64,000 nt of DNA from Kineosporia sp. A_224 (lineage in GTDB: Bacteria > Actinomycetota > Actinomycetes > Actinomycetales > Kineosporiaceae), in assembly GCF_002198655.1 (NCBI RefSeq), contig NZ_MWLN01000191.1, positions 1 to 64,000 on the forward strand, read 5' to 3'. Of the stretch, positions 5,368-19,241 are shown in pieces. The position numbers and the translations under genes were made by a program. The notes beneath the pieces were generated by a model. That model ran no database searches, was not told where the DNA came from, and worked only from the letters and a program-made list of their open reading frames with translations. Position 1 is the stretch's first letter; each line of letters begins with the position of its first letter.

Positions 5368-5441
5368 GGCCAGGTAGCTCAGTTGGTACGAGCGTCCGAC
5401 TGAAAATCGGAAGGTCGGCGGTTCGACCCCGCCCCTGGCCA
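5368..5441 (+). tRNA. tRNA-Phe (GAA), island integration target
   Basis: Acceptor GGCCAGG pairs with CCTGGCC. The anticodon stem TCCGA/TCGGA encloses loop CTGAAAA with anticodon GAA. This is the only complete tRNA-Phe in the window. Its 3' part from 5400 onward recurs at 8792-8834 and 18773-18815, so this gene is the apparent attachment site for tandem islands. Confidence 0.95.
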
Positions 5442-5442
5442 C
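5400..5442 (+). repeat. attL-like copy of the 43-bp tRNA-Phe direct repeat
   Basis: This stretch, from the anticodon loop through the 3' end of tRNA-Phe plus one base, matches 18773-18815 exactly. It matches 8792-8834 with one mismatch. It would be the left attachment site of a tandem island array. Confidence 0.85.
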
Positions 5443-5449
5443 AACCCCC

Positions 5450-5482
5450 GAAACCCCTGCTGAGCAGGGGTTTCTTCATTTT
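5450..5482 (+). terminator. Rho-independent terminator of the tRNA cluster
   Basis: GAAACCCCTGC (5450-5460) pairs with GCAGGGGTTTC (5464-5474) across a TGA loop, followed by a T-rich run. It lies 8 nt after tRNA-Phe. Confidence 0.85.
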
Positions 5483-6014
5483 GGCGCCCGGTCGCAGACC
5501 CGCGAAAGTGTCCGCGGAATGTCCGCGCCGAACGCCGCTTCCTCCCTCATCTGGGCCGTTGACCTGCGGCTTTGGCCGCCAGTCCGCCCGATCAGCAGCC
5601 GATTCTCGGCACGACCACGAGCCACGTCCCGACGCGTGCCAGTTCGTCCCGGCTCGGCCGGCCACGCGGCGTCTCGAACGGCCTCGTCCGCGGACACTCC
5701 GCTGGCACAGGCCGACGACGACCCGGCCGGCCGCCACGGACGAAATCCTTCCGACCCGGAAGGGGAAGGTCGGTGCGCTCTCGTGAGGGCAGGACATCGA
5801 TAGTGCCGACGAATGCCGATCCGTCCGGGGCAGAAGGCTGGCGTCCGCGGACACACCGTGATGCAGGCATCCCATGATGGCGACGTACCGCTCTACCGAC
5901 GCTGCGTGCGTCCGGGGCGATGCCGGACATGAGGGTCAGCCAGGTATTGCTCCAACCACCCTCACACTGCCTCGTGACTGTGCCGTTGGGCTGTGCACCG
6001 AGCGGCAGCGTCGT
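5483..6014. other. Gene-free left end of island 1 with repeated TCCGCGGA boxes
   Basis: No convincing gene is visible in this 530-bp stretch. It contains three copies of a GTCCGCGGAcac-type box at 5508-5518, 5686-5697 and 5843-5854. Their position beside the tRNA attachment site fits arm-type protein-binding sites of a lost recombination module; that role is inference. Confidence 0.5.
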
Positions 6015-8534: not shown

Positions 8535-9114
8535 ACGGCACACCCCACAACGTGATCCGGAGCCGAGCTCAGCAGCGGCTCCCTAGCACCATGGAGCTCA
8601 CACCCATTGCCGGCGCCGTCGACCTCCCCGAACCAGGACGCGACGCGAGGCGACGGAGTCCGGCTGTCCACGACCAACACCAGGTCGTTGCGGCAGATCT
8701 CGCCCAGGAGACGCCCAGGACTCCCCAACCCGACCCACCTCAGCCGTATCGCCGCAGGTCAGAGGGCCTCCGATTGGCAATCGACCGTCTTCTGAAAATT
8801 GGAAGGTCGGCGGTTCGACCCCGCCCCTGGCCACCACAAAAGGGCCTCTGATCAGCGAAAACGCGAAGCATCGCCGCTGGGTCACAGGCCCTTTCTCGTT
8901 CTCAGGCTCCCCGTGACGGTCGACGACCACCGGAGACAACCGGACGCCACCGGACAGGCTATCCCTCAAGATCACACCCATAGTGCGCCCACGAGCACCG
9001 TCTCAGCGCCCGCGCCGGAACGGCCATACAGTCATTGACCAGGCACGACGACGGACTCGTTCGCACCCGCCCGCAAGTGATCGTCCGACGAACGATCGGA
9101 AGATCGATGTAGTG
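8535..9114. other. Gene-free attP-like junction between islands 1 and 2
   Basis: No gene is seen in this 580-bp interval. It contains a left arm with boxes of the TCTCGCCCAGGA type (about 8684-8760), the 43-bp tRNA-Phe core, and a hairpin (AAAGGGCCTCTGA region pairing with CAGGCCCTTT, 8838-8894). A right arm at 9058-9109 is about 84% identical to 19036-19087. The same order and spacing recur at the junction near 18.8 kb. Confidence 0.6.
8792..8834 (+). repeat. Second copy of the 43-bp tRNA-Phe repeat (att site)
   Basis: It copies the tRNA-Phe 3' end with a single C-to-T change at 8800. The upstream half of the tRNA is absent, so it cannot be a functional tRNA. It marks the boundary between islands 1 and 2. 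Confidence 0.88.
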
Positions 9115-10086
9115 TCAGGCCTTGCGTTTGGCGGCCTCGTCGGTGGCCTGCGGGAGGACGGCGAACAGGTCGCCGACAACGCCGAAGTCGGCGAGCTCGA
9201 AGATCGGCGCCTCGGCGTCCTTGTTGATCGCGACGATCGTCTTGGACGTCTGCATGCCCGCCCGGTGCTGGATCGCACCGGAGATCCCGCACGCGACGTA
9301 CAGCTGCGGCGAGACCTGCTTGCCGGTCTGGCCGACCTGGTTGGAGTGCGGGTACCAGCCGGAGTCGACCGCGGCCCGGGACGCGCCCACGGCCGCGCCG
9401 AGGACGTCCGCGAACGCCTCGACCTTGGAGAAGTCGCCGTTCGTGCCCCGCCCGCCGGAGACGACGATCGCGGCCTCTGTGAGGTCCGGGCGACCGGACT
9501 TGGCCTTCGGCTTGCGCTCGACGACCTTGACCGCCTTCGCGAGGTCGGACAGCGTCACCGACACCGGCGTCGCGTCGACCGGAGCGCCCGCGACGGGCTG
9601 CGGCTCCACGCTGTTCGGCTTCACCGTGACGACCGGCAGCCCGCGGGTGACGGTGGAGTCGACGGTGAACCCGCCGGCGAACGCCGCCTGGCTCGTCGCC
9701 ACGCCGCCGCCGTCGGCCGCGCGGACGTCGATCGCGTCCGTGATGAGGCCCGAGTCGAGCTTGAGCGCGAGCCGGGCCGCGATCTCCTTGCCCTCCGCCG
9801 AGCTCGGGACGAGCACGGCGGCGAGCGCGGACGCGCCGCCGGCGGCCTCGACGACCGCGGCGAGCGCCTCGGCCTTGGCCAGCACGAGGTAGTCGTTCAC
9901 CTCGGCCGGCACCGTGTAGACCGCGGTGGCGCCGAACTCGGCGAGCGACCCCGCGGCGTTGTCGTAGCCGTCGCCGACGAACACCGCGGCCGGCTCACCG
10001 AGCCGCGCCGCGAACGTCAGCAGCTCCGACGTCGACTTGCGCACCGCACCGTCGACGTGGTCGACGAGCACCAGAACCTGTGCCAT
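9115..10086 (-). CDS. etfA: Electron transfer flavoprotein, alpha subunit
   Basis: This 323-residue FAD-binding subunit has the C-terminal ETF-alpha signature: IVVSGGRGTNGDF, then GQTGKQVSPQLYVACGISGA, then IVAINKDAEAPIFELADFG. These contact FAD and the beta subunit. The ATG at 10086 follows GGAGAG; an N-terminal extension in the same frame overlaps etfB and is rejected. ETF accepts electrons from dehydrogenases such as trimethylamine and dimethylglycine dehydrogenases. It is the last gene of the island 2 operon, which makes it the likely acceptor for the TMADH-like flavoprotein encoded upstream. Confidence 0.95.
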   Translation of the reverse strand: MAQVLVLVDHVDGAVRKSTSELLTFAARLGEPAAVFVGDGYDNAAGSLAEFGATAVYTVPAEVNDYLVLAKAEALAAVVEAAGGASALAAVLVPSSAEGKEIAARLALKLDSGLITDAIDVRAADGGGVATSQAAFAGGFTVDSTVTRGLPVVTVKPNSVEPQPVAGAPVDATPVSVTLSDLAKAVKVVERKPKAKSGRPDLTEAAIVVSGGRGTNGDFSKVEAFADVLGAAVGASRAAVDSGWYPHSNQVGQTGKQVSPQLYVACGISGAIQHRAGMQTSKTIVAINKDAEAPIFELADFGVVGDLFAVLPQATDEAAKRKA

Positions 10087-10124
10087 CTCAGCTCTCTCCT
10101 TGTCCAGGCTCTCTCGATCGACCG

Positions 10125-10916
10125 TCAGACCAGCTTGGCGCCGGCGAGGAACTCGACCAGCTTCGCGCCGCCGTCGCCCTCGTCCGTGACGACCGTGCCG
10201 GCCGCGCGCGGCGGCCGCTGGGTCACGCCCGCGACCGTCGTCCACGCCGCGCCGAGGCCGACCTCGCCCGCGTCGACGCCGAGGTCGGCGAGCGTCAGCG
10301 TCGTCACCGGCTTCTTCTTCGCCGCCATGATCCCCTTGAACGACGGGTACCGCGGCTCGTTGATCTGGTCCGTGACGCTGATCAGCGCCGGCAGCGCCGA
10401 CTCCACGACCTCGGTCGAGGTGTCACCGTCACGCTCGATGACGACCTTCGCTCCCGGCCCGTCACCCTCGATCGACAGCGACCCCGCGAACGTCACCTGC
10501 GGCAGCCCGAGCCGGTCGGCGACCAGCGCCGGCACGACGGACATCCCGGCGTCGGTCGAGGCCATCCCGGTCACGACGACGTCGTACTCCAGCGTCGCGA
10601 TCGCCTTCGCCAGCACCAGCGACGTCGCGAACGCGTCCGACCCGTGCAGCGCGTCGTCCACCACGTGGACCCCGGCGTCGGCACCCATCTGCAACGCCTT
10701 GCGCACCGCGTCCGACGCCGCGTCCGGACCCACCGTCACTACGGTCACCGTGGAGCCGTCGTTCGCCTCGGACAGCTTGAGCGCCTCCTCGACCGCGTAC
10801 TCGTCGAGCTCGGACAGCAGCCCGTCGACCCCGGCCCGGTCCACCGTGTGGTCGGCTGCGAAGCGACGGTCGCCCTGGGCGTCCGGCACGTGCTTCACAC
10901 AGACGACGATTCTCAT
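10125..10916 (-). CDS. etfB: Electron transfer flavoprotein, beta subunit
   Basis: This 263-residue protein starts MRIVVCVKHVPDAQGDRRF. It carries the ETF-beta AMP-binding region around VTGMASTDAGMSVVPALVADRLGLPQVT and the C-terminal SFKGIMAAKKKPV recognition loop. Its AAGGAG ribosome site overlaps the folD stop codon (TAAGGAG), so it is translationally close-coupled to folD. It pairs with etfA 38 bp downstream. Placement beside one-carbon genes rather than acyl-CoA dehydrogenase genes points to a methylamine or N-methyl amino-acid dehydrogenase as electron donor. Confidence 0.95.
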   Translation of the reverse strand: MRIVVCVKHVPDAQGDRRFAADHTVDRAGVDGLLSELDEYAVEEALKLSEANDGSTVTVVTVGPDAASDAVRKALQMGADAGVHVVDDALHGSDAFATSLVLAKAIATLEYDVVVTGMASTDAGMSVVPALVADRLGLPQVTFAGSLSIEGDGPGAKVVIERDGDTSTEVVESALPALISVTDQINEPRYPSFKGIMAAKKKPVTTLTLADLGVDAGEVGLGAAWTTVAGVTQRPPRAAGTVVTDEGDGGAKLVEFLAGAKLV

Positions 10917-10927
10917 AGCGGAACTCC

Positions 10928-11803
10928 TTACGGTGCAACGGATGAGTGTTCAGGCGTCCGGCGTTCGGCGGTCTCGACGACGTTGGTGAGCAGCATCGCG
11001 CGGGTCATGGGGCCGACGCCGCCGGTGGCTGGGGCGAGGTGGCCGGCGACGTGGGTGACGTCGGGGTGGACGTCACCGAGGATGCCTTCCACGGTGCGGG
11101 TGATCCCGACCGACAGGACGGTGGCGCCAGGGCGGACCCATTCGGGGCGGACGAGGTGTGCGACGCCGGCTGCGGCGACCACGATGTCGGCGACGGCGGT
11201 GTGTGAGGCGACGTCTTCGGTGGCTTCGTGGCACAAGGTGACGGTGGCGTGCTCGGTGGGTCTGGTGAGCATGAGGCCGAGCGGACGGCCGACGGTCATG
11301 CCGCAGCCGATGACGCAGACCTGCGCGCCGGTGATCCGGATGTCGTTGCGGCGTAGGAGCTCGATGATGCCCCGCGGGGTGCAGGGTTGGGGCCCGGGCA
11401 TGCCCAGGACGAGGCGGCCGAGGTTGGTCGGGTGCAGGCCGTCGGCGTCCTTGCCCGGGTCGACGAGGTCGAGGACGGTGTGGGTGTCGACCTGGGCCGG
11501 GAGCGGGAGCTGGACGATGAAGCCGGTCACGCCGGCGTCGGCGTTGAGTTGGTGGACGGCGTCCTCGACATGTGCCTGGCTCGCGGTGGCGGGGAGGTCG
11601 ACCCGGGTGGAGGTGATGCCGACCTGCTCGCAGTCGCGGTGCTTGCCGGCGACGTAGGCGTGGCTGCCCGGGTCGTCGCCGACGAGGATTGTTCCCAGGC
11701 CCGGCTGGCGGCCCGCAAGGCGCAGCGTCATGACACGCTCGGCGAGTTCGGCCTTGATGGCTGCGGCCGCCTTCTTGCCATCGAGCAGGGTCGCGGTGAC
11801 CAC
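10928..11803 (-). CDS. folD: Bifunctional methylene-THF dehydrogenase / methenyl-THF cyclohydrolase
   Basis: This 291-residue FolD shows [12 protein letters not shown] with the catalytic Tyr and Lys, [13 protein letters not shown] and [14 protein letters not shown]. The dinucleotide-binding stretch reads [17 protein letters not shown], and the C-terminal motif is [13 protein letters not shown]. It oxidises 5,10-methylene-THF to 10-formyl-THF with NADP. The GTG at 11803 follows GAGG. It lies 27 bp after purU in the same operon. A dedicated copy here would drain one-carbon units produced by demethylation; a housekeeping folD probably exists elsewhere, which cannot be seen in this window. Confidence 0.93.
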
Positions 11804-11830
11804 GGTCTACCTCCCCGGTGCTGTCGGGTC

Positions 11831-12691
11831 CTAGTGGAAGACGACGGTGCGGTGGCCGGCGAGGACGACGCGGTCCTCGGCGTGCAACCGCAGGGCGCGG
11901 GCAAGGACGACGCGTTCGACGTCGCGGCCGATGGCTACGAGGGTGTCGGCGTCCTGGGCGTGGGTGACGCGGACGACGTCCTGCTCGATGATCGGGCCCT
12001 CGTCGAGGTCGGCGGTGACGTAGTGCGCGGTGGCGCCGATGAGCTTGACGCCGCGTTCGTAGGCCTGGTGGTACGGCTTGGCGCCCTTGAAGCCGGGCAG
12101 GAAGGAGTGGTGGATGTTGATGACCCTGCCCGAGAGCTTGCGGCAGGCGTGGTCGGAGAGCACCTGCATGTAGCGGGCGAGGACGACGACGTCGACGGTG
12201 TGCTGCTCGATGAGATCGAACAGGAGCGATTCGGCCGCGGCCTTGCTCGTCGGGCCGTCGGGCATTTGGGTGACGGGGATCCAGTGGAAGCCGATGCCGT
12301 GCCGGTCGGCGATCTCCTGGGTGTCGGGGTGGTTGGAGACGATGATCGGGATGTCGACCGCGAGTTCGCCGAGCTGCTGCCGGTAAAGCAGGTCGACGAG
12401 GCAGTGGTCGAACTTGGACACCATGAGCAGGACTCGCTTGCGCTGGCCGGTGGGGCGCAGGGTGACGACCGGGTCGAACCGTCGGACCCGGTCCAGGATC
12501 TGTGTGCGGACGCCGTCGACGTCGCCGTCCGGGCTGTCGAACTGGGTGCGGACGCAGAAGGTGCCGGTGACCGGGTCGGAGAACTGGGCGTTCTCGACGA
12601 TGTTGCCCCTGACCTCGACGATGCCGTCCGCGAGGGCACGAACGATGCCGGGCTGGTCGGGGCAGGTCAGGGTGAGGATGTACTGCTGCAC
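11831..12691 (-). CDS. purU: Formyltetrahydrofolate deformylase
   Basis: This 286-residue protein starts at GTG 12691 (MQQYILTLTCPDQPGIV), preceded by GGAG; a longer in-frame GTG at 12730 is less likely. An N-terminal ACT domain (residues 1-80) precedes a formyltransferase fold. The latter carries the catalytic region VINIHHSFLPGFKGAKPYHQAYERGVK and ATAHYVTADLDEGPIIEQD. It hydrolyses 10-formyl-THF to formate and free THF. In this operon it would complete methyl group to methylene-THF to formyl-THF to formate and regenerate THF for the GcvT-like enzyme. Confidence 0.93.
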   Translation of the reverse strand: MQQYILTLTCPDQPGIVRALADGIVEVRGNIVENAQFSDPVTGTFCVRTQFDSPDGDVDGVRTQILDRVRRFDPVVTLRPTGQRKRVLLMVSKFDHCLVDLLYRQQLGELAVDIPIIVSNHPDTQEIADRHGIGFHWIPVTQMPDGPTSKAAAESLLFDLIEQHTVDVVVLARYMQVLSDHACRKLSGRVINIHHSFLPGFKGAKPYHQAYERGVKLIGATAHYVTADLDEGPIIEQDVVRVTHAQDADTLVAIGRDVERVVLARALRLHAEDRVVLAGHRTVVFH

Positions 12692-12810
12692 GATGGCTCC
12701 GGGTTCGTGGGTGGTTCCGGGCGGCGGCACGACGGTGCGCGCCTGAAGACCACCTGGCAGCGGTGGACCTGGCGGCGTGGCGGGTGTTCGAGGCGTGGCT
12801 GTGTCAGACG

Positions 12811-13941
12811 TCAGGAGCGGACGCGGGTGCGTTCCGGGTCGTAGACGGGGGTTGCCTTCACGATGGCGGACGTCGTGGCGCCGTCGACGCCGACGGTCGT
12901 GAGCGTGGTCCCGGGCTTGGCGGCGTCCTGGTCGACGCGGGCCATGGCGAGGGTGGCGCCGCCGAGGTGCGGTGACGGGACGGCCATCGTCACGTGGCCG
13001 ACGTCGGTTCCGTCGAGGAGAAGCCGGGCGCCTTCGGCGGCTTCAGGCGCGGCGTCGATCTGGACGGTGACGACGCGGCCGCGGACGGTGCCCTTCTTGG
13101 CGCGCAGGGCGTTCTTGCCGAGCCAGGGTCCCTTGTCGAAGTCCAGGGCCCAGCCCATCCGGCACTCGTACGGGGTGACCGTGTGGTCGTACTCGAGCTC
13201 ACCCATGATCATGCCGGCTTCGATGCGGCACATCATGAGGGCGGCGGCGCCGAAGGGGCGGGCACCGATGTCGGCGCCGGTGTCGGTGACGGCGTCCCAC
13301 AGGGTGAGGGCGTGCTGGCGGGGCACGACGATCTCGTAGCCGAGCTCGGCCGTGAAGCCGACCCGGTTGACCTGCGCCGGGACGCCGGCGACGGTCAGGT
13401 CGGTGCGGAACGTGTAGTACGGGAACGCCTCGTTCGAGAGGTCGGCGTCGGTGAGCCGGGCCAGGACGTCTCGGCTGCGCGGCCCTTGCAGGGTCAGGAC
13501 GGCGGTCTCGTCGCGGCGCTCAGTCACCGTCGTCCCGTTCCCGGTGGCGTCCTGGAGGAGCTCGGCGGTGGTCGGGTTGCCGCCGACGACGAGCACCTCG
13601 CGGGCGGAGAGCACCGAGACGGTGACGTCATCGACCATGCAGCCGTCGGCGTCGGTGACGACGCCGTACGCGATCCGCCCGACCGGCTGCGTGGTGACGT
13701 TGTGGGAGAACACCGCGTCGACAACGGCGACGGCGTCCGGGCCTTCGACGGACCACTTGTGGAGCATGGAGTACTCGCTGAACCCCACCGTGGTGCGGAT
13801 GGCGGCGTACTCCTCGCCGGGATCTCCCGACTCGCTGAGGATCAGTGGGACGGCGTGGCCGTAGACGTCGATCCACTCGGTGACGGTGTCGGCGTAGCGG
13901 GGCGAGAACGGCGTCGGGCGCAGGTTCTCCGGGATGGCCAT
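12811..13941 (-). CDS. GcvT-like tetrahydrofolate-dependent aminomethyltransferase / demethylase
   Basis: This 376-residue member of the GcvT/YgfZ/DmdA/LigM superfamily shows GFSEYSMLHKWSVEGPDA, then the catalytic-type acid in DGCMVDDVTVSVLS. The folate-contacting region GFTAELGYEIVVPRQHA is present, as is the C-terminal domain ending VKATPVYDPERTRVRS. It is not the glycine-cleavage T protein: no gcvH or gcvP is nearby, and it follows a TMADH-like dehydrogenase gene by 46 bp. Expected role: transfer the methylene released by oxidative N-demethylation onto THF. An O-demethylase role of LigM type is an alternative, but the flavoprotein/ETF partners favour N-demethylation. Confidence 0.82.
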   Translation of the reverse strand: MAIPENLRPTPFSPRYADTVTEWIDVYGHAVPLILSESGDPGEEYAAIRTTVGFSEYSMLHKWSVEGPDAVAVVDAVFSHNVTTQPVGRIAYGVVTDADGCMVDDVTVSVLSAREVLVVGGNPTTAELLQDATGNGTTVTERRDETAVLTLQGPRSRDVLARLTDADLSNEAFPYYTFRTDLTVAGVPAQVNRVGFTAELGYEIVVPRQHALTLWDAVTDTGADIGARPFGAAALMMCRIEAGMIMGELEYDHTVTPYECRMGWALDFDKGPWLGKNALRAKKGTVRGRVVTVQIDAAPEAAEGARLLLDGTDVGHVTMAVPSPHLGGATLAMARVDQDAAKPGTTLTTVGVDGATTSAIVKATPVYDPERTRVRS

Positions 13942-13987
13942 GAGTGCCTCTCGTGTGGTGTCGCGGGTCGGCGCGAGGTCGGGCCGG

Positions 13988-16129
13988 TCAGCCGAGAAGG
14001 GTTGCTGCGCCGAGGGTGTAGTCGTCCTCGGTGGCGCCGACGAGGCGGCGTTCGCGGATGTACGGCAGCGGGACGTCGGGGTTCGGTGAGTCGATCTCGC
14101 GGGCGAGGCGGTGCCCGGAGAAGGTGGCCTGGGCGATGATGCCGGGCGAGTGGGCGTCGCCGACGAGGTGGAGCTGGCTGATGCCGGCTTCGTCGAGGGC
14201 GGCCTGGTCGTCGGCGAGCTCGTCGTACAGGGCGCTGTCGCTGTAGCGGCCGGTGACCAGGGCGAGGGAGTCGACGTCGAGGGTGACCTCGTTGCCGCCC
14301 CACAGGTGCACGAGCTGGGCCTTGCCGGGCTCGTAGGAGAGCACGAGGTGCTGGGACAGGATCGTGACGCCGAGCTCGGTGAGCCGCTGGTACATCCGCT
14401 GCTCCTCGAGGGTGTACCGCAGGTAGGGGCCGAGGGTCTCCCAGTGGGTGGCGTAGGTGACTCGTCTGCCCTGCCGGGCGAGGAACTCGGCGGTGGTGGA
14501 GGCCATGTGGTAGCCGTCGCCGTCGACGACCAGGACGTGGTCGCCGAGCTGCTTGCCCTCGACGACGAGCTGCTCCGGGGTGGCGACGTCCGGGCGGGTG
14601 GCGTCGGCCCCGGCGATAGGATCGTGGGTGGGGGTGTTCATCCCGTCGCCGGCCCAGTGGGCGCCGGTGGCGACGATGACGATCTCGGCGCCGTACTCGC
14701 GGACGTCCTGGGCGCTCATCCGGGTGTTGGGAATGAACTGGACGTTGTCGAGCTTGGAGATCTGCCGCTCGCGGTACTCCGCGACCCGGCGCCAGGCGCG
14801 CAGTCCGGGCATGGTCGTCATCCAGTTGAGGTGGCCGCCCATCTCGGACCCGGCGTCGACGAGGTGGACGGCCTCGAAGCCGCGCTTGCCCAGGACGACG
14901 GCGGCCTCCATCCCGGCCGGTCCGGCGCCGACGACGAGGACGGGCTTGTCGGCGTTGCGGGCGGTGCTGAACTTCTCCGGGTGCCAGCCGCGGCGGTACT
15001 CCTCGCCGCTGGTGGGGTTCTGGGTGCACCAGATCGGCGGGCCGCCCATCTCCCAGCGGGAGACGCACACGTTGCAGCCGATGCACTCGCGGATGTCCTC
15101 GAACCGGCCTTCCTCGATCTTCTTGGGCAGGAACGGGTCGGCGATCGAGGGGCGGGCGGCGCCGATGATGTCGGCCTGCCCGGAGTTGATGACGCCGATC
15201 ATGACGTCGGGGTCGGTGAAGCGGCCGACGTTGATGCACGGCTTGCTGGTGGCCTGCTTGGCGACCTTGACGTACTCGGCCTCGTGGTTGGTGTCGAAGA
15301 ACCGGCTGGAGCCGGCGTCCTCGCCCCAGTTCAGGGTGCCGACGTTGAGGTCCCAGTAGTCGACGAGGTGGTCCAGGGCGGCGATGAAGTCCTTGCCCTC
15401 TCCGTTCGCGCGGACCCCGAGGTCGCCGTAGCCGTACGGGTCCTCGAGGGTGTCGATGACGAACCGCATCCCGATCGCGACGCCGTCGACCTCGGAGCGC
15501 AGGTCCTCGAGGACCTCTCGGGTGAACCGGATCCGGTTCTCGAAGGAGCCGCCGTACTCATCGGTGCGCTTGTTGTAGAACGGGTACAGGAAGTAGATCG
15601 GGAAGGTGCCCAGACCCGCGTAGAACGTGAGCAGGTCAAAGCCGGCGTCCTTGGCCCGCTTGAACCCCTCGACGTGCTCGCGGCGCAGCGCCGCGATCTC
15701 CCGCTTGGACAGCGCCCGGCCGTTGGCCAGGTAGTTGATGTCGCTGGCGATCTGGGAGACGACCTTGGCCGGGGCGCGGGTCTCGGCGTTGGCGGCCAGG
15801 CCGCCCGGGTGGCACAGCTCGACACCGGCCAGGGCGTCGTGGGCGTGGATCGCGTCAGTCATCTCCCGCAGGTTGCGCACGTCGCCGGCGTCCCACAACT
15901 TGCTCGCGACCCACGGCATGACGTCCCCGCCGGGGGCGATCGAGCAGACCTCGGTGAAGACCGCCGACCAGCCGCCCTCGGCCTTCATGCCGCGGAACGC
16001 CGCCTGGAAGCCCGGCCGGTCCGACCCGGCGCCGTTGCAGTGCGGGACCTGCCAGAAGCGGTTCTTCAGGGTGTGCGGGCCGATCTGGATCGGCTCGAAC
16101 AGGACGTCATACTTGGCCTCGCGAGGCAT
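13988..16129 (-). CDS. Trimethylamine-dehydrogenase-like iron-sulfur flavoprotein (probable N-demethylating dehydrogenase)
   Basis: This 713-residue protein has the full TMADH/dimethylamine dehydrogenase architecture: an N-terminal FMN TIM barrel, a 4Fe-4S site and a C-terminal Rossmann pair. QVPHC places Cys31 where TMADH forms its cysteinyl-FMN bond. The cluster motif CIGCNVCVSRWEMGG ends with a fourth Cys (PIWCTQNP). Trp and Asp of the substrate pocket are kept in LNWGEDAGSSRF, and Trp in SRWEMGG. However, the TMADH Tyr60 position is Val (FTEVCSI), and the Tyr169/His172 region reads FYAGLGTF, so the substrate probably is not trimethylamine. Relatives (from memory) act on dimethylglycine and N-methylproline. 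Neighbours supply transport, THF and ETF. Confidence 0.85.
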   Translation of the reverse strand: MPREAKYDVLFEPIQIGPHTLKNRFWQVPHCNGAGSDRPGFQAAFRGMKAEGGWSAVFTEVCSIAPGGDVMPWVASKLWDAGDVRNLREMTDAIHAHDALAGVELCHPGGLAANAETRAPAKVVSQIASDINYLANGRALSKREIAALRREHVEGFKRAKDAGFDLLTFYAGLGTFPIYFLYPFYNKRTDEYGGSFENRIRFTREVLEDLRSEVDGVAIGMRFVIDTLEDPYGYGDLGVRANGEGKDFIAALDHLVDYWDLNVGTLNWGEDAGSSRFFDTNHEAEYVKVAKQATSKPCINVGRFTDPDVMIGVINSGQADIIGAARPSIADPFLPKKIEEGRFEDIRECIGCNVCVSRWEMGGPPIWCTQNPTSGEEYRRGWHPEKFSTARNADKPVLVVGAGPAGMEAAVVLGKRGFEAVHLVDAGSEMGGHLNWMTTMPGLRAWRRVAEYRERQISKLDNVQFIPNTRMSAQDVREYGAEIVIVATGAHWAGDGMNTPTHDPIAGADATRPDVATPEQLVVEGKQLGDHVLVVDGDGYHMASTTAEFLARQGRRVTYATHWETLGPYLRYTLEEQRMYQRLTELGVTILSQHLVLSYEPGKAQLVHLWGGNEVTLDVDSLALVTGRYSDSALYDELADDQAALDEAGISQLHLVGDAHSPGIIAQATFSGHRLAREIDSPNPDVPLPYIRERRLVGATEDDYTLGAATLLG

Positions 16130-16272
16130 GGCGGAACCCCCGTCGGGTCATGGGCGGGTCATGGGCGGGATTGGCGGATGGGTGCCACCCGGCCGGCGCG
16201 TGGCTCAGACGTCCGGCCGGGTGGCGGTTCGCGGGGTCGGGCTTCGCGGGGACGGCCTTCGTGGGGCGGTGC

Positions 16273-17742
16273 TCAGGTGAGCTCGCTGTCCAGGTCGGCC
16301 AGGGCGGTGGCGCCGATCCGGGACTCCGTCGCGGCGAAGAGGATCAGTCCGACGATGAACGCTGTCGGCACGGTCAGCGCGAGGATCGTCGGCAGCCCGC
16401 CGGTGCTGCCGATGAGGACGTCGAAGTTGGCGATGATGAGGACCAACGCTGCGCTCATGGCGACCGCTGCGAGCACCGGCGCGATCTTGGTGTTCCACGC
16501 CCGGCCGTCCAGGGTCGGGTTGTTGCGGAAGAAGACGAACGCCGCGACCGCGACAAGGATGTAGAGGGTCACGACGCCCACGACGGCGATTCCCGAACCC
16601 CAGAAGAACAGGGTGAGCACCGGGTCCTTGCCGAGGATCGCGAACGGCAGGACCAGCAAGGCGGCGATCGCGGTCTGGGTGAACGAGGCGATGTACGGGG
16701 CCTTGGTCTTCGGGTGCACCTTGGCCAGCGGTGCGGGCAGCACCCCGTCGCGGGACAGCGTCCACAGGTACCGGGCGATGCCGTTGTGGAAGGCCAGGTT
16801 GCACGCGAACATCGAGGTGATGACGAAGACGGTCATCGCGTGCGGGGCCCAGGCTCCGAGGTAGGTGCCGCCGGCGTCGAAGACGTACGCCGCCGGGTTG
16901 CCGCTCTCCAGGGTCTTGCCCGCGACCTCGATGGCCTTGCTCGGGCCGTAGCCGACGACCAGCGCCCAGGAGTTGAACGCGAAGAACAGCGTGATCGCGC
17001 CGAGCGCGGTGAACGTGGCCCGCGGGATGGACCGCTTGGGGTCGCGGACCTCCTCGCCGTAGATCGCGGTCGACTCGAACCCGAACATCGACGCGAACGC
17101 CATCACCAGCGCGACCCCCGGGGCGCCGGAGAGGACGGCCGACGGACTGAACACGTCACCGACGGCATAGCCCTCACCGGCGCCGCCCTTGGCGAAGATG
17201 ACCACGCTCAGGACGATGATCGTGCCCCACTCCAGGGCCATGAGGACGCCGAGGAGCTTGGCGCCGACCTCGACGTGGAGGTACCCGAAGACCTGCACGA
17301 GGAGCATCAGCCCGAACGTCAATGCCCACCACGGGACCGACACCCCGAACCACTCGGCGACCGCGCCGGAGGCCACCGCTCCGAAGAACCCGTAGACGGC
17401 GATCTGCACGGTCACGTAGGCCCAGATCGCGATGCTCCCCGCGCCGAGCCCCATCCGCAGCCCGAGGCCGCGCCCCACGTACGCGTAGAGCGCACCCGTG
17501 TTGGTCACCTGCCGGGACATCGCCACGTAGGAGACGCCGAACAGGGCCAGGATCAGCCCGACCACGATGTACGCGGCCGAGGCACCCAGACCGTTGCCGA
17601 GGACCATGGCGGTCGGGACCGCACCGGTAAGCCCGATCAACGGGCTGGCCGCGGCCAGGACGAGGAACACCACCCCGGTACTGCTGATGGCGTTGCGTTG
17701 CAGACCTTCTTGCACGGGCTGGGTGTTCACGGTGTCGCTCAC
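16273..17742 (-). CDS. APC-family amino acid / amine permease
   Basis: This protein of about 489 residues has 12 or more predicted membrane helices. It contains the APC N-terminal motif GVVFLVLAAASPLIGLTGAVP and FGFESTAIYGEEVRDPKRSIPRAT, which is typical of amino acid permeases. The GTG at 17742 (MSDTVNTQPVQEG) is chosen because AGGAG lies 7 bp upstream; a frame extension to 17820 has no ribosome site. It heads the minus-strand island 2 operon and should import the methylated substrate for the flavoprotein. Its APC class suggests a zwitterionic amino-acid-like substrate rather than a simple amine. Confidence 0.88.
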   Translation of the reverse strand: MSDTVNTQPVQEGLQRNAISSTGVVFLVLAAASPLIGLTGAVPTAMVLGNGLGASAAYIVVGLILALFGVSYVAMSRQVTNTGALYAYVGRGLGLRMGLGAGSIAIWAYVTVQIAVYGFFGAVASGAVAEWFGVSVPWWALTFGLMLLVQVFGYLHVEVGAKLLGVLMALEWGTIIVLSVVIFAKGGAGEGYAVGDVFSPSAVLSGAPGVALVMAFASMFGFESTAIYGEEVRDPKRSIPRATFTALGAITLFFAFNSWALVVGYGPSKAIEVAGKTLESGNPAAYVFDAGGTYLGAWAPHAMTVFVITSMFACNLAFHNGIARYLWTLSRDGVLPAPLAKVHPKTKAPYIASFTQTAIAALLVLPFAILGKDPVLTLFFWGSGIAVVGVVTLYILVAVAAFVFFRNNPTLDGRAWNTKIAPVLAAVAMSAALVLIIANFDVLIGSTGGLPTILALTVPTAFIVGLILFAATESRIGATALADLDSELT

Positions 17743-17827
17743 GACCACACTCCTGGAGGCGGAGGCCGACCCGGGCAGCACTGCTCGGGCGGACTGCTGG
17801 CGCCGTGCCGGCGTGACCATGAGAATC

Positions 17828-17850
17828 TATCCACATGGATAACTTGTCAA
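17828..17850. promoter_or_regulatory. Operator/promoter of the demethylation operon
   Basis: TATCCA-CA-TGGATA (17828-17841) is a perfect 6-bp dyad. On the minus strand TTGACA (17845-17850) immediately precedes it as a -35 element, so the dyad lies between -35 and the presumed -10. This is ideal for repression by the adjacent TetR (17926). Confidence 0.6.
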
Positions 17851-17925
17851 TAGGCTAGTTCTCGAGGTCCCGGGTGGGAGACACACGGGCCCTGAGCACA
17901 ATGGGGTCCGACAGGGAGGAGCACC

Positions 17926-18546
17926 GTGACCGCAGAGCCCGTCGGCACCGGCCTGACAGCCGAGGACGGCGAGGGCCGAGACCGGCCCCGCTACGGCGAG
18001 GGCCGCGAGGCGCTCCTGCGTGCCGCCATCCGAGTCGTCGCGACGTCCGGGCTGCGCAACCTCACTTACCGGGCGGTCGCCCGCGAGGCGGGCGTCACGC
18101 ACGGCCTCGTCGCTCACCACTTCGGCTCACGCGACACCCTGCTCGAGGAAGCCCTCCGCTACAGCCTCCAGCTCAGCGTCGAGACCAGCTCACTGGAGTC
18201 CGGCACCGGGCAGATCGACGACTTCGCCCGCGACCTGCCCGAGTTCGTCGACAGGGAGCCCGACGTCCAAGCGTTCCAGTACGAGCTCATCCTCGAGTCC
18301 CGCCGCCGCCCCGAGCTGCGGCCTTACGTCGAGGAGCTCTACGACTACTACCGCGGTGCAGCGCGCCGCGAGCTTGCCCGGCTCGGGATCCAGGACCCCG
18401 CACTCGCCGACGTCGCCTATGCCGCGCTCGACGGCCTCGTCTTCCAGCAGATCTCGGTCGCCTCTCCCGAGAACACCCGGAGGTCGGTCGACGCTTTGCG
18501 GACCATGCTGCTGGCGGCCAGAGACGCCCCGCCGGCCCGCGACTAG
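17926..18546 (+). CDS. TetR-family regulator of the demethylation operon
   Basis: This 206-residue protein has an N-terminal helix-turn-helix (about residues 25-70) containing LTYRAVAREAGVTHGLVAHHFGSRDTLLEEAL, and a C-terminal helical domain. The GTG at 17926 follows GGGAGGAG. It is divergent from the permease gene with a palindromic operator in between, so it most likely represses the operon at 9115-17742 until the substrate or a metabolite binds. It is the last gene of island 2. Confidence 0.88.
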   Translation: MTAEPVGTGLTAEDGEGRDRPRYGEGREALLRAAIRVVATSGLRNLTYRAVAREAGVTHGLVAHHFGSRDTLLEEALRYSLQLSVETSSLESGTGQIDDFARDLPEFVDREPDVQAFQYELILESRRRPELRPYVEELYDYYRGAARRELARLGIQDPALADVAYAALDGLVFQQISVASPENTRRSVDALRTMLLAARDAPPARD

Positions 18547-19241
18547 CCTTCGGACCCTGGTCCGACGCCGGATGACCGGGCGGCACCGTCGGCTCAGGTA
18601 CTGGCTCGCTCCTCGGCAGCCCTGTGGTGCCACCGCTCAGTCCGGATGTCTTCGAATACCTCCAGTTGGTTGCGGTCATTCTCGCCCAGGACCCGCCCAG
18701 AACCTCCCGAGGAACGACCCCAGTACCTATCACCCCAGGTCAGACCCCGGTTCACGTAGTCCGGGTGGTCTTCTGAAAATCGGAAGGTCGGCGGTTCGAC
18801 CCCGCCCCTGGCCACCGAAAAGGGCCTCTGAACTGGGGAAACGCAACCGATTCCTCCAGTTCAAAGGCCCTTCGTCGTTGTGCGGTGTCCGCGACGCCCG
18901 ATGACAGCCGTGGTCCGCCGGACACCCGAGAGCCTCCGAACGCCCAAGACTTGCCCATTGTCTGCCCAAGTGCCAGGTCGCCGCGCCCAGACGTGAGAGA
19001 GCGACAGGCCCCTGATCAGCAGCGATGCACCTGATCGTTCGGACCCGCCCGAAAACGATCGTCCGACGATGTGTCGGAAGATCGCTCCCGCTACGCCGGC
19101 GCCCATCCGAACGGCAGAGCATCTCCGGCGCTCCATCGGATCCGGAGCAGTGTTCGGGGGCGCACGACATGGAACGGTAAGTTGCCGGATCAAGGTGACG
19201 GCGGGATTCAGGTGATCGTTGCGACGTTGATAGTGAAGGGT
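18547..19241. other. Gene-free attP-like junction between island 2 and the glycan locus
   Basis: This 695-bp interval has no convincing gene. It repeats the structure at 8.5-9.1 kb: a left arm with TCTCGCCCAGGAC boxes (about 18665-18750), the 43-bp tRNA-Phe core at the same spacing, and a hairpin AAAGGGCCTCTGAAC...GTTCAAAGGCCC (18818-18872). A right arm follows at 19036-19087. Apparent peptide matches of the 'GRGRTADLPIF' kind across these sites are antisense tRNA artefacts. Confidence 0.6.
18773..18815 (+). repeat. Third copy of the 43-bp tRNA-Phe repeat (att site)
   Basis: It is identical to 5400-5442 over 43 bp but lacks the tRNA 5' half. It marks the right end of the demethylation island and the left end of the next segment. 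Confidence 0.88.

Follow-up and report, generated by a model that had tools for sequence, protein, structure and literature searches.

The window analysed here, bases 1 to 64,000 of contig C103 (335,770 bp) in the draft genome of Kineosporia sp. A_224 (7.2 Mb in 242 contigs, about 70% GC), contains an operon on the minus strand running from 17820 down to 9115, with a divergent gene for a TetR-family regulator upstream. The operon encodes a permease, a flavoprotein related to trimethylamine dehydrogenase (TMADH), a GcvT-like protein, PurU, FolD and both subunits of an electron transfer flavoprotein (ETF). In the reading we favour, with a probability of roughly two-thirds, this is an operon for folate-coupled oxidative N-demethylation, carried as a potentially cis-mobilizable cassette that has no integrase, is flanked by attachment (att)-like sites and lies in a tandem array anchored at a tRNA-Phe gene. 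The genes named in an earlier, sequence-only reading of the window were all present as open frames with the stated families. The unit is larger than the genes themselves and extends from about 8805 to 18815, because conserved ends and exact 30-nucleotide (nt) copies of the 3' end of tRNA-Phe flank the operon.

The last 30 nt of tRNA-Phe (5413-5442) recur on C103 at 8805, 18786, 64435, 85680, 89074, 102349, 112994 and 130868, always on the same strand. Seven of these eight core copies match the gene in 30 of 30 nt, and the copy at 102349 has one mismatch; one further copy was found on contig C144. For C103 the scan ran over the first 180 kb, for C144 over 20 kb. Counting the tRNA gene, nine cores in one orientation are spread over 125 kb, and the operon lies between the second and the third. 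The core-to-core intervals measure 3.4, 10.0, 45.6, 21.2, 3.4, 13.2, 10.6 and 17.8 kb. A query with 8700-9000 gave 10 places in the genome among the 40 scored of 62 candidates; one is on C144 and nine are on C103, the query stretch and tRNA-Phe being counted. The longer matches around the cores are 71 to 82% identical, and the fully identical stretches span about 34 to 43 nt. GC content is 0.697 to 0.730 in the segments and 0.734 in the contig beyond 140 kb.

An exact 32-nt pattern of the core is present in 7 of 13 genomes of the family. Nine copies were counted here (eight on C103 and one on C144), seven and two in the congeners, two in G001, a genome of another genus (four with one mismatch allowed), and one in each of three others. 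Across the class the pattern occurs in 45 of 394 genomes; nine have it twice, and only Kineosporia sp. A_224 has it more often. In the plasmid collection, the stretch 8700-9110 found four records, matching the core alone. Ten proteins were sampled from five of the seven other intervals, and nine had a family match. These were FAD monooxygenase-type (two), FAA hydrolase, dehydratase, aldehyde dehydrogenase, PhyH, agmatine-deiminase-type, copper amine oxidase and thiamine pyrophosphate-enzyme families.

Conserved sequences also mark the inner sides of the cores. In the operon cassette the left end extends as far as the end of etfA, and the right end begins 51 bp past the TetR gene. The left-end model and the right-end model each matched six of the eight junctions. 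Six of these junctions had gone into building the left-end model and five into the right-end one, which leaves the match at 85522 as the sole independent one. At six of the eight junctions, the 66 nt that follow the core gave fold z-scores between -5.1 and -7.0. Covariation of this hairpin was examined in nine copies from two species, chosen out of 27 junctions examined; 18 pairs were predicted, three of them with changes on both sides. Paired cells, cells with changes on both sides and the covariation score beat all 500 shuffles, and slid structures scored lower. The number of pairs changed on both sides (three) was reached by 344 of 500 shuffles, and the number of further pair types (six) by 112 of 500. 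Insertion of an element would cut tRNA-Phe off from its own terminator, and for this reason we infer that the hairpin would serve as a replacement terminator for the tRNA gene. The native flank after tRNA-Phe has a hairpin of its own (z -3.2). Around the cores, an inverted motif, CTCTGACCTG / CAGGTCAGAG, raised the possibility of recombinase arm sites. Its downstream part was found, with at most three mismatches, at 21 of the 27 junctions (20 at p 0.04 or less and one at 0.14) and its upstream part at 17, of which 11 were at chance level (p 0.27-0.41). The hairpin accounts equally well for the downstream motif, so arm sites are only one possible reading.

The sequence-only reading had placed the operon on a mobile island. 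The flanking tRNA-Phe copies lend this a support that the earlier reading did not have, but the island contains no integrase: its eight called genes all belong to other families, and no PF00589 match was found between its cores. With two att-like direct repeats (8805-8834 and 18786-18815) and no integrase or transfer genes of its own, the cassette has the makeup of a cis-mobilizable element. The sole PF00589 match on C103, one of 17 in the genome, is a tyrosine recombinase encoded with an AbiEi_4/AbiEii-domain pair in a small segment between two tRNA-Phe cores (C103:85710-89073). This element (85.7-89.1 kb) is a candidate helper that would mobilise the operon cassette, and its AbiEi/AbiEii pair may stabilise the array. 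Recombinase matches at E <= 1e-60 were found in 4 of 28 near genomes, our own included, and in the other three the gene stands directly after tRNA-Phe (G012, 85% identity; G011, 53%; G010, 59%). A gene for a type IV secretion coupling protein about 12 kb further on in G011 argues that a conjugative element is probably present at the tRNA-Phe of that genome. On the Micromonospora plasmid pMR2, an identical 30-nt core lies next to an integrase gene, the product of which is only 30% identical to the C103 recombinase, over part of the protein. The recombinase would act in trans on the 3' half of tRNA-Phe and its copies, so that segments between cores would be excised, inserted or carried along, and the left end of an inserted cassette would supply the hairpin in place of the displaced tRNA-Phe terminator.

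Comparison with sister genomes shows where the variation lies. To the left of tRNA-Phe, the sequence of two congeners agrees with ours to about 94% over 5 kb. To the right, gene content differs among three species of the genus in the available stretches, and the backbone shared with G011 resumes at about 160 kb. The PhyH gene just inside the left end at 64435 sits likewise inside a left end in G011 (84%). In G011, 2.4 kb adjoining the shared backbone matches 97.3-100.0 kb of C103 at 86 to 89%, inside the 89104-102348 interval, which may therefore hold old chromosomal sequence.

The best solved match of the 713-residue flavoprotein is TMADH (1djn; 738.5 bits, full length), followed by two histamine dehydrogenases (556 and 526 bits). 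A family search gave the domains Oxidored_FMN, an OYE-like second domain and Pyr_redox_2. Cys30, the four Fe-S cysteines, Trp264, Asp267 and Trp355 of TMADH are all kept; we take Cys30 to be the residue that binds flavin mononucleotide (FMN) covalently, and Tyr60, His172 and the other columns compared to have their assumed active-site roles. In chain 1djq of the same structure table, position 30 is Ala. Full-length homology, Cys30 and the four Fe-S cysteines identify a TMADH-type Fe-S flavoprotein. Tyr60 and His172 are replaced by Val (Val61) and Leu (Leu173), and for this reason we class the protein as a TMADH relative and not as trimethylamine dehydrogenase proper.

In a tree of 33 rows (quick search with Shimodaira-Hasegawa-like approximate likelihood ratio test [SH-aLRT] support, no bootstrap, some long branches outside the clade), the flavoprotein grouped with that of Aeromicrobium (77% identity) within a 16-row clade (SH-aLRT 99). 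The clade spans Actinomycetota, Pseudomonadota and Acidobacteriota; its members come from Solirubrobacterales, Acidimicrobiaceae, Thioglobus and other gammaproteobacteria, Rhodobacteraceae and other Rhodobacterales, and metagenome-assembled genomes of Rhizobium and Vicinamibacterales. The signature of Cys30, Trp264, Asp267 and Trp355 with Val or Ile at 60 and Leu at 172 was found in all 16 clade rows and in none of the 18 other aligned rows. Judged by this shared active-site signature and the tree, the clade is a separate subfamily. It presumably acts on a substrate other than trimethylamine; the smaller side chains invite the guess that this substrate is larger. A relative on an Azoarcus plasmid adjoins a GcvT gene, has ETF genes and carries the TMADH residues at all signature columns. 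On the Aminobacter plasmid pAA02 (locus L071, 9001-11149), a flavoprotein homologue is annotated as two overlapping frames and may be broken or reflect a sequencing error.

The protein encoded next to the flavoprotein has both GCV_T and GCV_T_C, and its DD motif aligns with that of GcvT, which places it in the one-carbon (C1) acceptor family. Its best solved matches are GcvT (1woo, 151.7 bits) and the C-terminal half of trimethylamine N-oxide (TMAO) demethylase (9q5a, 150.7 bits). It scored 235.9 bits against NF053776 (TMAO demethylase), below the cut-off of that whole-protein model. A GcvT gene lies beside the flavoprotein gene at 12 of 14 loci with at least 59% identity and at none of four loci with 40 to 42%; the count leaves out the fragment locus L057, and L052 has little upstream sequence. 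Both annotated plasmid hits at 60 to 61% show the same adjacency; for the clade as a whole the figure is 14 of 16 rows. Several of the loci are close kin (the Thioglobus group), so the 14 loci are not independent cases. In the phage collection the GcvT-like protein found 13 records, all below 60% identity.

PurU scored 322.9 bits against TIGR00655 (NCBIfam cut-off 285.95), and FolD 423.9 against NF010789 (cut-off 401), above one NCBIfam cut-off. Oxidative N-demethylation with folate capture, which the sequence-only reading had proposed, remains the best account of the retained TMADH-type residues, the GcvT-like partner and the PurU, FolD and ETF genes. The most likely function is the oxidative N-demethylation of an amine, with the C1 unit captured on tetrahydrofolate (THF) and released as formate. 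The permease would bring in an N-methylated amine or amino acid, and the flavoprotein would oxidise the N-methyl group and pass electrons through FMN and its 4Fe-4S cluster to the operon ETF. The GcvT-like protein would trap the C1 unit as methylene-THF, which FolD would convert to formyl-THF; PurU would then free formate and restore THF. The description of the module as self-contained goes too far: the operon genes, to which this check was confined, include neither an ETF:quinone oxidoreductase nor a formate dehydrogenase. Nor is the combination peculiar to a mobile unit. The Aeromicrobium locus has flavoprotein, GcvT, PurU, FolD and permease genes with a TetR of the same kind; the Gemmobacter locus reads TetR-permease-flavoprotein-GcvT-purU; and the Solirubrobacterales locus holds PurU, GcvT, flavoprotein and TetR genes together with distant ETF genes. 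The gene set is therefore an established module and not a novelty of the Kineosporia island. A Colwellia island with sarcosine oxidase and purU is, moreover, described in passages of PMC3691474.

The ETF and flavoprotein genes have different affinities. Operon EtfA is 91 to 92% identical to the second ETF found in each of three genomes of the genus, 73 to 75% to ETFs of two other genera and 51 to 52% to two more; in one of the 13 family genomes an ETF match at E <= 1e-40 was not found. Trees put both operon ETF subunits within the genus (99/99 and 99/97). By contrast, the flavoprotein appears to be foreign to this family: its nearest relative, in Aeromicrobium, is 77% identical, and no relative above 51% was found elsewhere in the 13 family genomes; relatives at E <= 1e-190 occur in 4 of 394 sampled genomes of the class, our own included. 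The second FolD copy of the genome is on contig C14. The simplest reading of these affinities is that a demethylase module was acquired from outside and combined with a copy of the ETF native to the genus. In the sister species G012, a core copy is directly followed by purU (57%), a gene for an 815-residue protein and an etfBA pair that is 93% (A) and 87% (B) identical to the operon pair. The large protein contains DAO, FAO_M, GCV_T and GCV_T_C, which we take to be the domain set of dimethylglycine oxidase. This cluster would do the same job with another demethylase, in line with the function proposed here. The related ETF beside a different demethylase suggests that N-demethylation pathways are assembled by swapping parts beside the tRNA gene. 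A second core was not found on the 14.5-kb G012 contig.

Neighbouring genes give some hints about the substrate. Among five marine relatives (L041, L042, L044, L047 and L050), all have transporter genes alongside, presumably of the tripartite tricarboxylate type, and four also carry sulfatase, amidotransferase and LigB dioxygenase genes. Aldehyde dehydrogenase and a glutamine-synthetase-like gene are further neighbours. These marine neighbourhoods point to a methylated substrate. Around the Aeromicrobium operon are genes for a P450, an FAD oxidoreductase and Peptidase_C26 and a member of the aldehyde dehydrogenase cluster. Naming the substrate from such neighbours was tried and rejected, as the marine and Aeromicrobium neighbourhoods disagree on any single one. 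Among the literature matches listed, none linked homarine or hordenine to the flavoprotein-GcvT pair, which excludes neither substrate. The pair of TMADH-type protein and GcvT was likewise unnamed in the titles and abstract openings of the matches listed, which does not prove its absence from print. The passages of PMC12478193, which concerns a cobalamin route, and of PMC13390433, which concerns trimethylamine regulation, do not contain the pair.

Several observations weigh against the cassette as we describe it, or limit its reach. The core at 102349 lacks both conserved ends and the hairpin (z +0.7), the core at 85680 lacks the hairpin (z -1.6), and the 45.6-kb interval is long for a single cassette and may be composite; part of the array may therefore be fixed. 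The tRNA-Phe gene here keeps a native-type terminator (5443-5800), which is unexpected if insertions simply stack at tRNA-Phe, and in G011 and G012 that terminator follows another core; the array order is thus not a simple stack. The contig has a PF00589 recombinase in one place only, 67 kb from the operon cassette and in a different segment, and the array was searched for PF00589, not for serine recombinases or conjugation genes. Its genes were sampled rather than all annotated, with the 89104-102348 interval outside the sample. No tRNA-Phe core with up to seven mismatches was found near the operons of relatives (L039-L057, L078 and L096-L099). As to function, none of the operon genes names a substrate, and 2 of the 14 close loci have no GcvT gene in the available stretch. 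Operon EtfB is 95% identical to the genus's second ETFs as opposed to 87% for the G012 copy; given also the open forks in the tree, the two clusters need not go back to a single duplication of the ETF genes.

The chemistry could be different. The flavoprotein might deaminate amines in the manner of histamine dehydrogenase or pseudooxynicotine oxidase, freeing ammonia or methylamine from a larger molecule, while the folate genes serve another reaction. Histamine dehydrogenases are its next best solved relatives, marine members lie near glutamine-synthetase-like, aldehyde dehydrogenase and LigB genes, and passages of PMC5500553 describe a TMADH-like enzyme of a nicotine pathway that releases methylamine and has etfAB in its cluster. 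We consider a deaminase unlikely nonetheless, in view of the GcvT pairing at 12 of 14 loci, the purU genes in three loci, and the FAD- and GcvT-domain protein of dimethylglycine oxidase kind in the G012 cluster. Still less probable is a GcvT-like protein that would itself be a direct O-, S- or N-demethylase, like LigM or DmdA, independent of the flavoprotein. The protein does weakly resemble the DmdA, DesA and LigM models (93.4, 44.6 and 37.3 bits), all below cut-off, but its matches to GcvT and to the C-terminal half of TMAO demethylase are much closer, and it adjoins the flavoprotein across phyla.

A doubt that leaves the proposed chemistry intact concerns mobility. The core copies may be relics: the segments, and the operon with them, would be old arrivals that have since become fixed as chromosomal catabolic genes. 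The low identity of the longer matches around the cores, a segment GC close to that beyond 140 kb, the one decayed core and the single recombinase element all fit such a history. Yet seven of eight cores have stayed exact while their flanks drifted, and three species of the genus have different genes between their cores despite a left flank that is about 94% identical. We regard relics as a possible outcome, clearly behind a cassette that can still be mobilised. That the repeats are an assembly artefact, with unrelated contigs joined at tRNA-like sequence, is scarcely credible even for a draft of 242 contigs: the identical stretches are only about 34 to 43 nt long, ordinary sequencing reads are longer than this, and two other species of the genus and one species of another genus show the same design.

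Positions of the operon, its regulator and the flanking array elements are given in Table 1. Intergenic gaps within the operon are 11 to 143 bp, so a single transcript is plausible, and the operon is likely transcribed as one unit. Separate gene calling makes 10086, rather than 10245, the most likely start of etfA. The sequence-only reading gave the operon its own TetR and operator. The regulator stands, and would repress the operon until substrate is present. The operator is weak when taken alone, as shuffling the intergenic region 300 times gave a palindrome of the quality of TATCCACATGGATA in 124 cases. The same 14-mer matches 12 of 14 nt upstream of the Aeromicrobium TetR gene (0 of 1,000 shuffles); among the other relatives' regions (five searched in all), one had 10 of 14 (p 0.04) and three were at chance level (p 0.15-0.79).

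Table 1. Features of the operon cassette and its tRNA-Phe anchor in the window
Feature	Position	Strand	Evidence or remark
tRNA-Phe (GAA), array anchor; 3' half is the repeated core	5368..5442	+	ARAGORN
tRNA-Phe 3'-end copy, left att-like core of operon cassette	8805..8834	+	30/30 nt identical
Conserved cassette left end, terminator-like hairpin in first ~60 nt	8836..9134	+	nhmmer (copy in model); fold z-score -5.05
etfA, ETF alpha subunit	9115..10086	-	PF00766, PF01012; identity to other ETFs in the genus 91-93%
etfB, ETF beta subunit	10125..10916	-	PF01012
folD, methylene-THF dehydrogenase/cyclohydrolase	10928..11803	-	PF00763, PF02882; one of two genome copies
purU, formyl-THF deformylase	11831..12691 (alternative start 12730)	-	TIGR00655 above cut-off
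GcvT-like THF-dependent aminomethyltransferase, 376 aa	12811..13941	-	PF01571, PF08669 (GCV_T + GCV_T_C)
TMADH-type 4Fe-4S flavoprotein, 713 aa	13988..16129	-	best solved relative TMADH 1djn
APC-family amino-acid/amine permease	16273..17820 (start 17748 also possible)	-	PF13520, AA_permease_2
Candidate operator TATCCACATGGATA (weak)	17828..17841	.	adjoins TTGACA of leftward promoter
TetR-family regulator, divergent	17926..18546	+	PF00440, PF17940
Conserved cassette right end	18597..18773	+	nhmmer (copy in model)
tRNA-Phe 3'-end copy, right att-like core of operon cassette	18786..18815	+	30/30 nt identical

Some further observations concern cores and segments elsewhere. In the segment C103:102683-112685, an agmatine-deiminase-type gene at 105400 was identified by family match; a second similar gene at 111696 and ABC-transporter-like genes were recognised by sequence look only. 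Four cores lie within 10 kb on contig C131 of G001, along with a fragment that by look only resembles an integrase C-terminus. Small genes of about 60 and 104 residues recur near cores (G011 contigs C238, C194 and C103; G012 contig C541), paired or singly and in either orientation; they are toxin-antitoxin-like by look only, and two tested from the G011:C238 locus had no Pfam match. On the conjugative Paenarthrobacter plasmid pTC1 (locus L131, 15010-15039), a core with one mismatch is followed by GCAGGTCAGAG...CTCTGACCTGC.

Cargo elements linked to tRNA genes are known, the tycheposons among them. As in the Dehalococcoides ssrA islands, described in passages of PMC3146451 as tandem catabolic operons within 100 kb with direct repeats of the 3' end of an RNA gene, the array here consists of tandem, largely metabolic segments behind one RNA gene with repeats of its 3' end. 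In the same passages, 15 islands without an integration module are suggested to be cis-mobilizable elements. The Dehalococcoides system has a serine recombinase, 20-bp repeats and a transfer-messenger RNA gene, whereas here a tyrosine recombinase and repeats of about 40 nt from tRNA-Phe occur in an actinobacterium, where a single segment has a match to such a recombinase and most cores are followed by a hairpin. Actinomycete integrative and conjugative elements (AICEs) of Streptomyces and Frankia can also accumulate one behind another at a single tRNA gene, with identical direct repeats, and passages of PMC9513070 and PMC3218068 report that some defective ones are thought to be mobilisable with a helper. 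As described there, AICE accretion involves one to three conjugative elements per site with integrases and remnants, in contrast to the mostly metabolic segments without tyrosine recombinase found here. We did not file the array as an integron: its core is the 3' end of tRNA-Phe and relatives of the recombinase lie beside tRNA-Phe, although IntI models and attC sites were not searched for. The array is a variant of known accretion arrays, an actinobacterial tRNA-Phe array of largely metabolic segments, one of them with a recombinase. It was absent among the literature matches listed, which does not prove it unpublished.

The operon also has relatives among described pathways. TMADH (1djn) shares the full-length match, the FMN and Fe-S cysteines, Trp264, Asp267 and Trp355; the protein described here differs in its Val and Leu and in the adjoining GcvT gene. 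The Methylocella TMAO demethylase (9q5a, NF053776) has a C-terminal half as close to the GcvT-like protein as GcvT is, but it is one fused protein with another N-terminal half, whereas the GcvT-like protein is separate. To our knowledge it has no flavin dehydrogenase partner. The dimethylglycine/sarcosine operons with purU (glyA-soxBDAG-purU), in passages of PMC3691474 and PMC3534580, likewise bring flavin N-demethylation, folate capture and PurU together in one cluster, which in Colwellia lies on a genomic island; their demethylase is sarcosine oxidase, in contrast to the TMADH-type Fe-S flavoprotein with separate GcvT found here.

A further-reaching reading, which we put forward only tentatively and well short of even odds, is a tRNA-Phe-anchored, integron-like system confined to one actinobacterial lineage. 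One small recombinase-plus-AbiE element would serve many integrase-less catabolic operons in trans, with species swapping pathways, and the operon would be one cassette, composed of an imported folate-coupled demethylase of the TMADH subfamily and a copy of the genus ETF. The bounded unit makes mobility checkable by simple PCR. The TMADH-type subfamily crosses phyla, is mostly paired with a folate acceptor and occurs also in genomes of marine Thioglobus and Rhodobacteraceae. If the integron-like reading were true, species would assemble and exchange substrate pathways as cassettes whose ends consist of a tRNA 3' half and a terminator hairpin.

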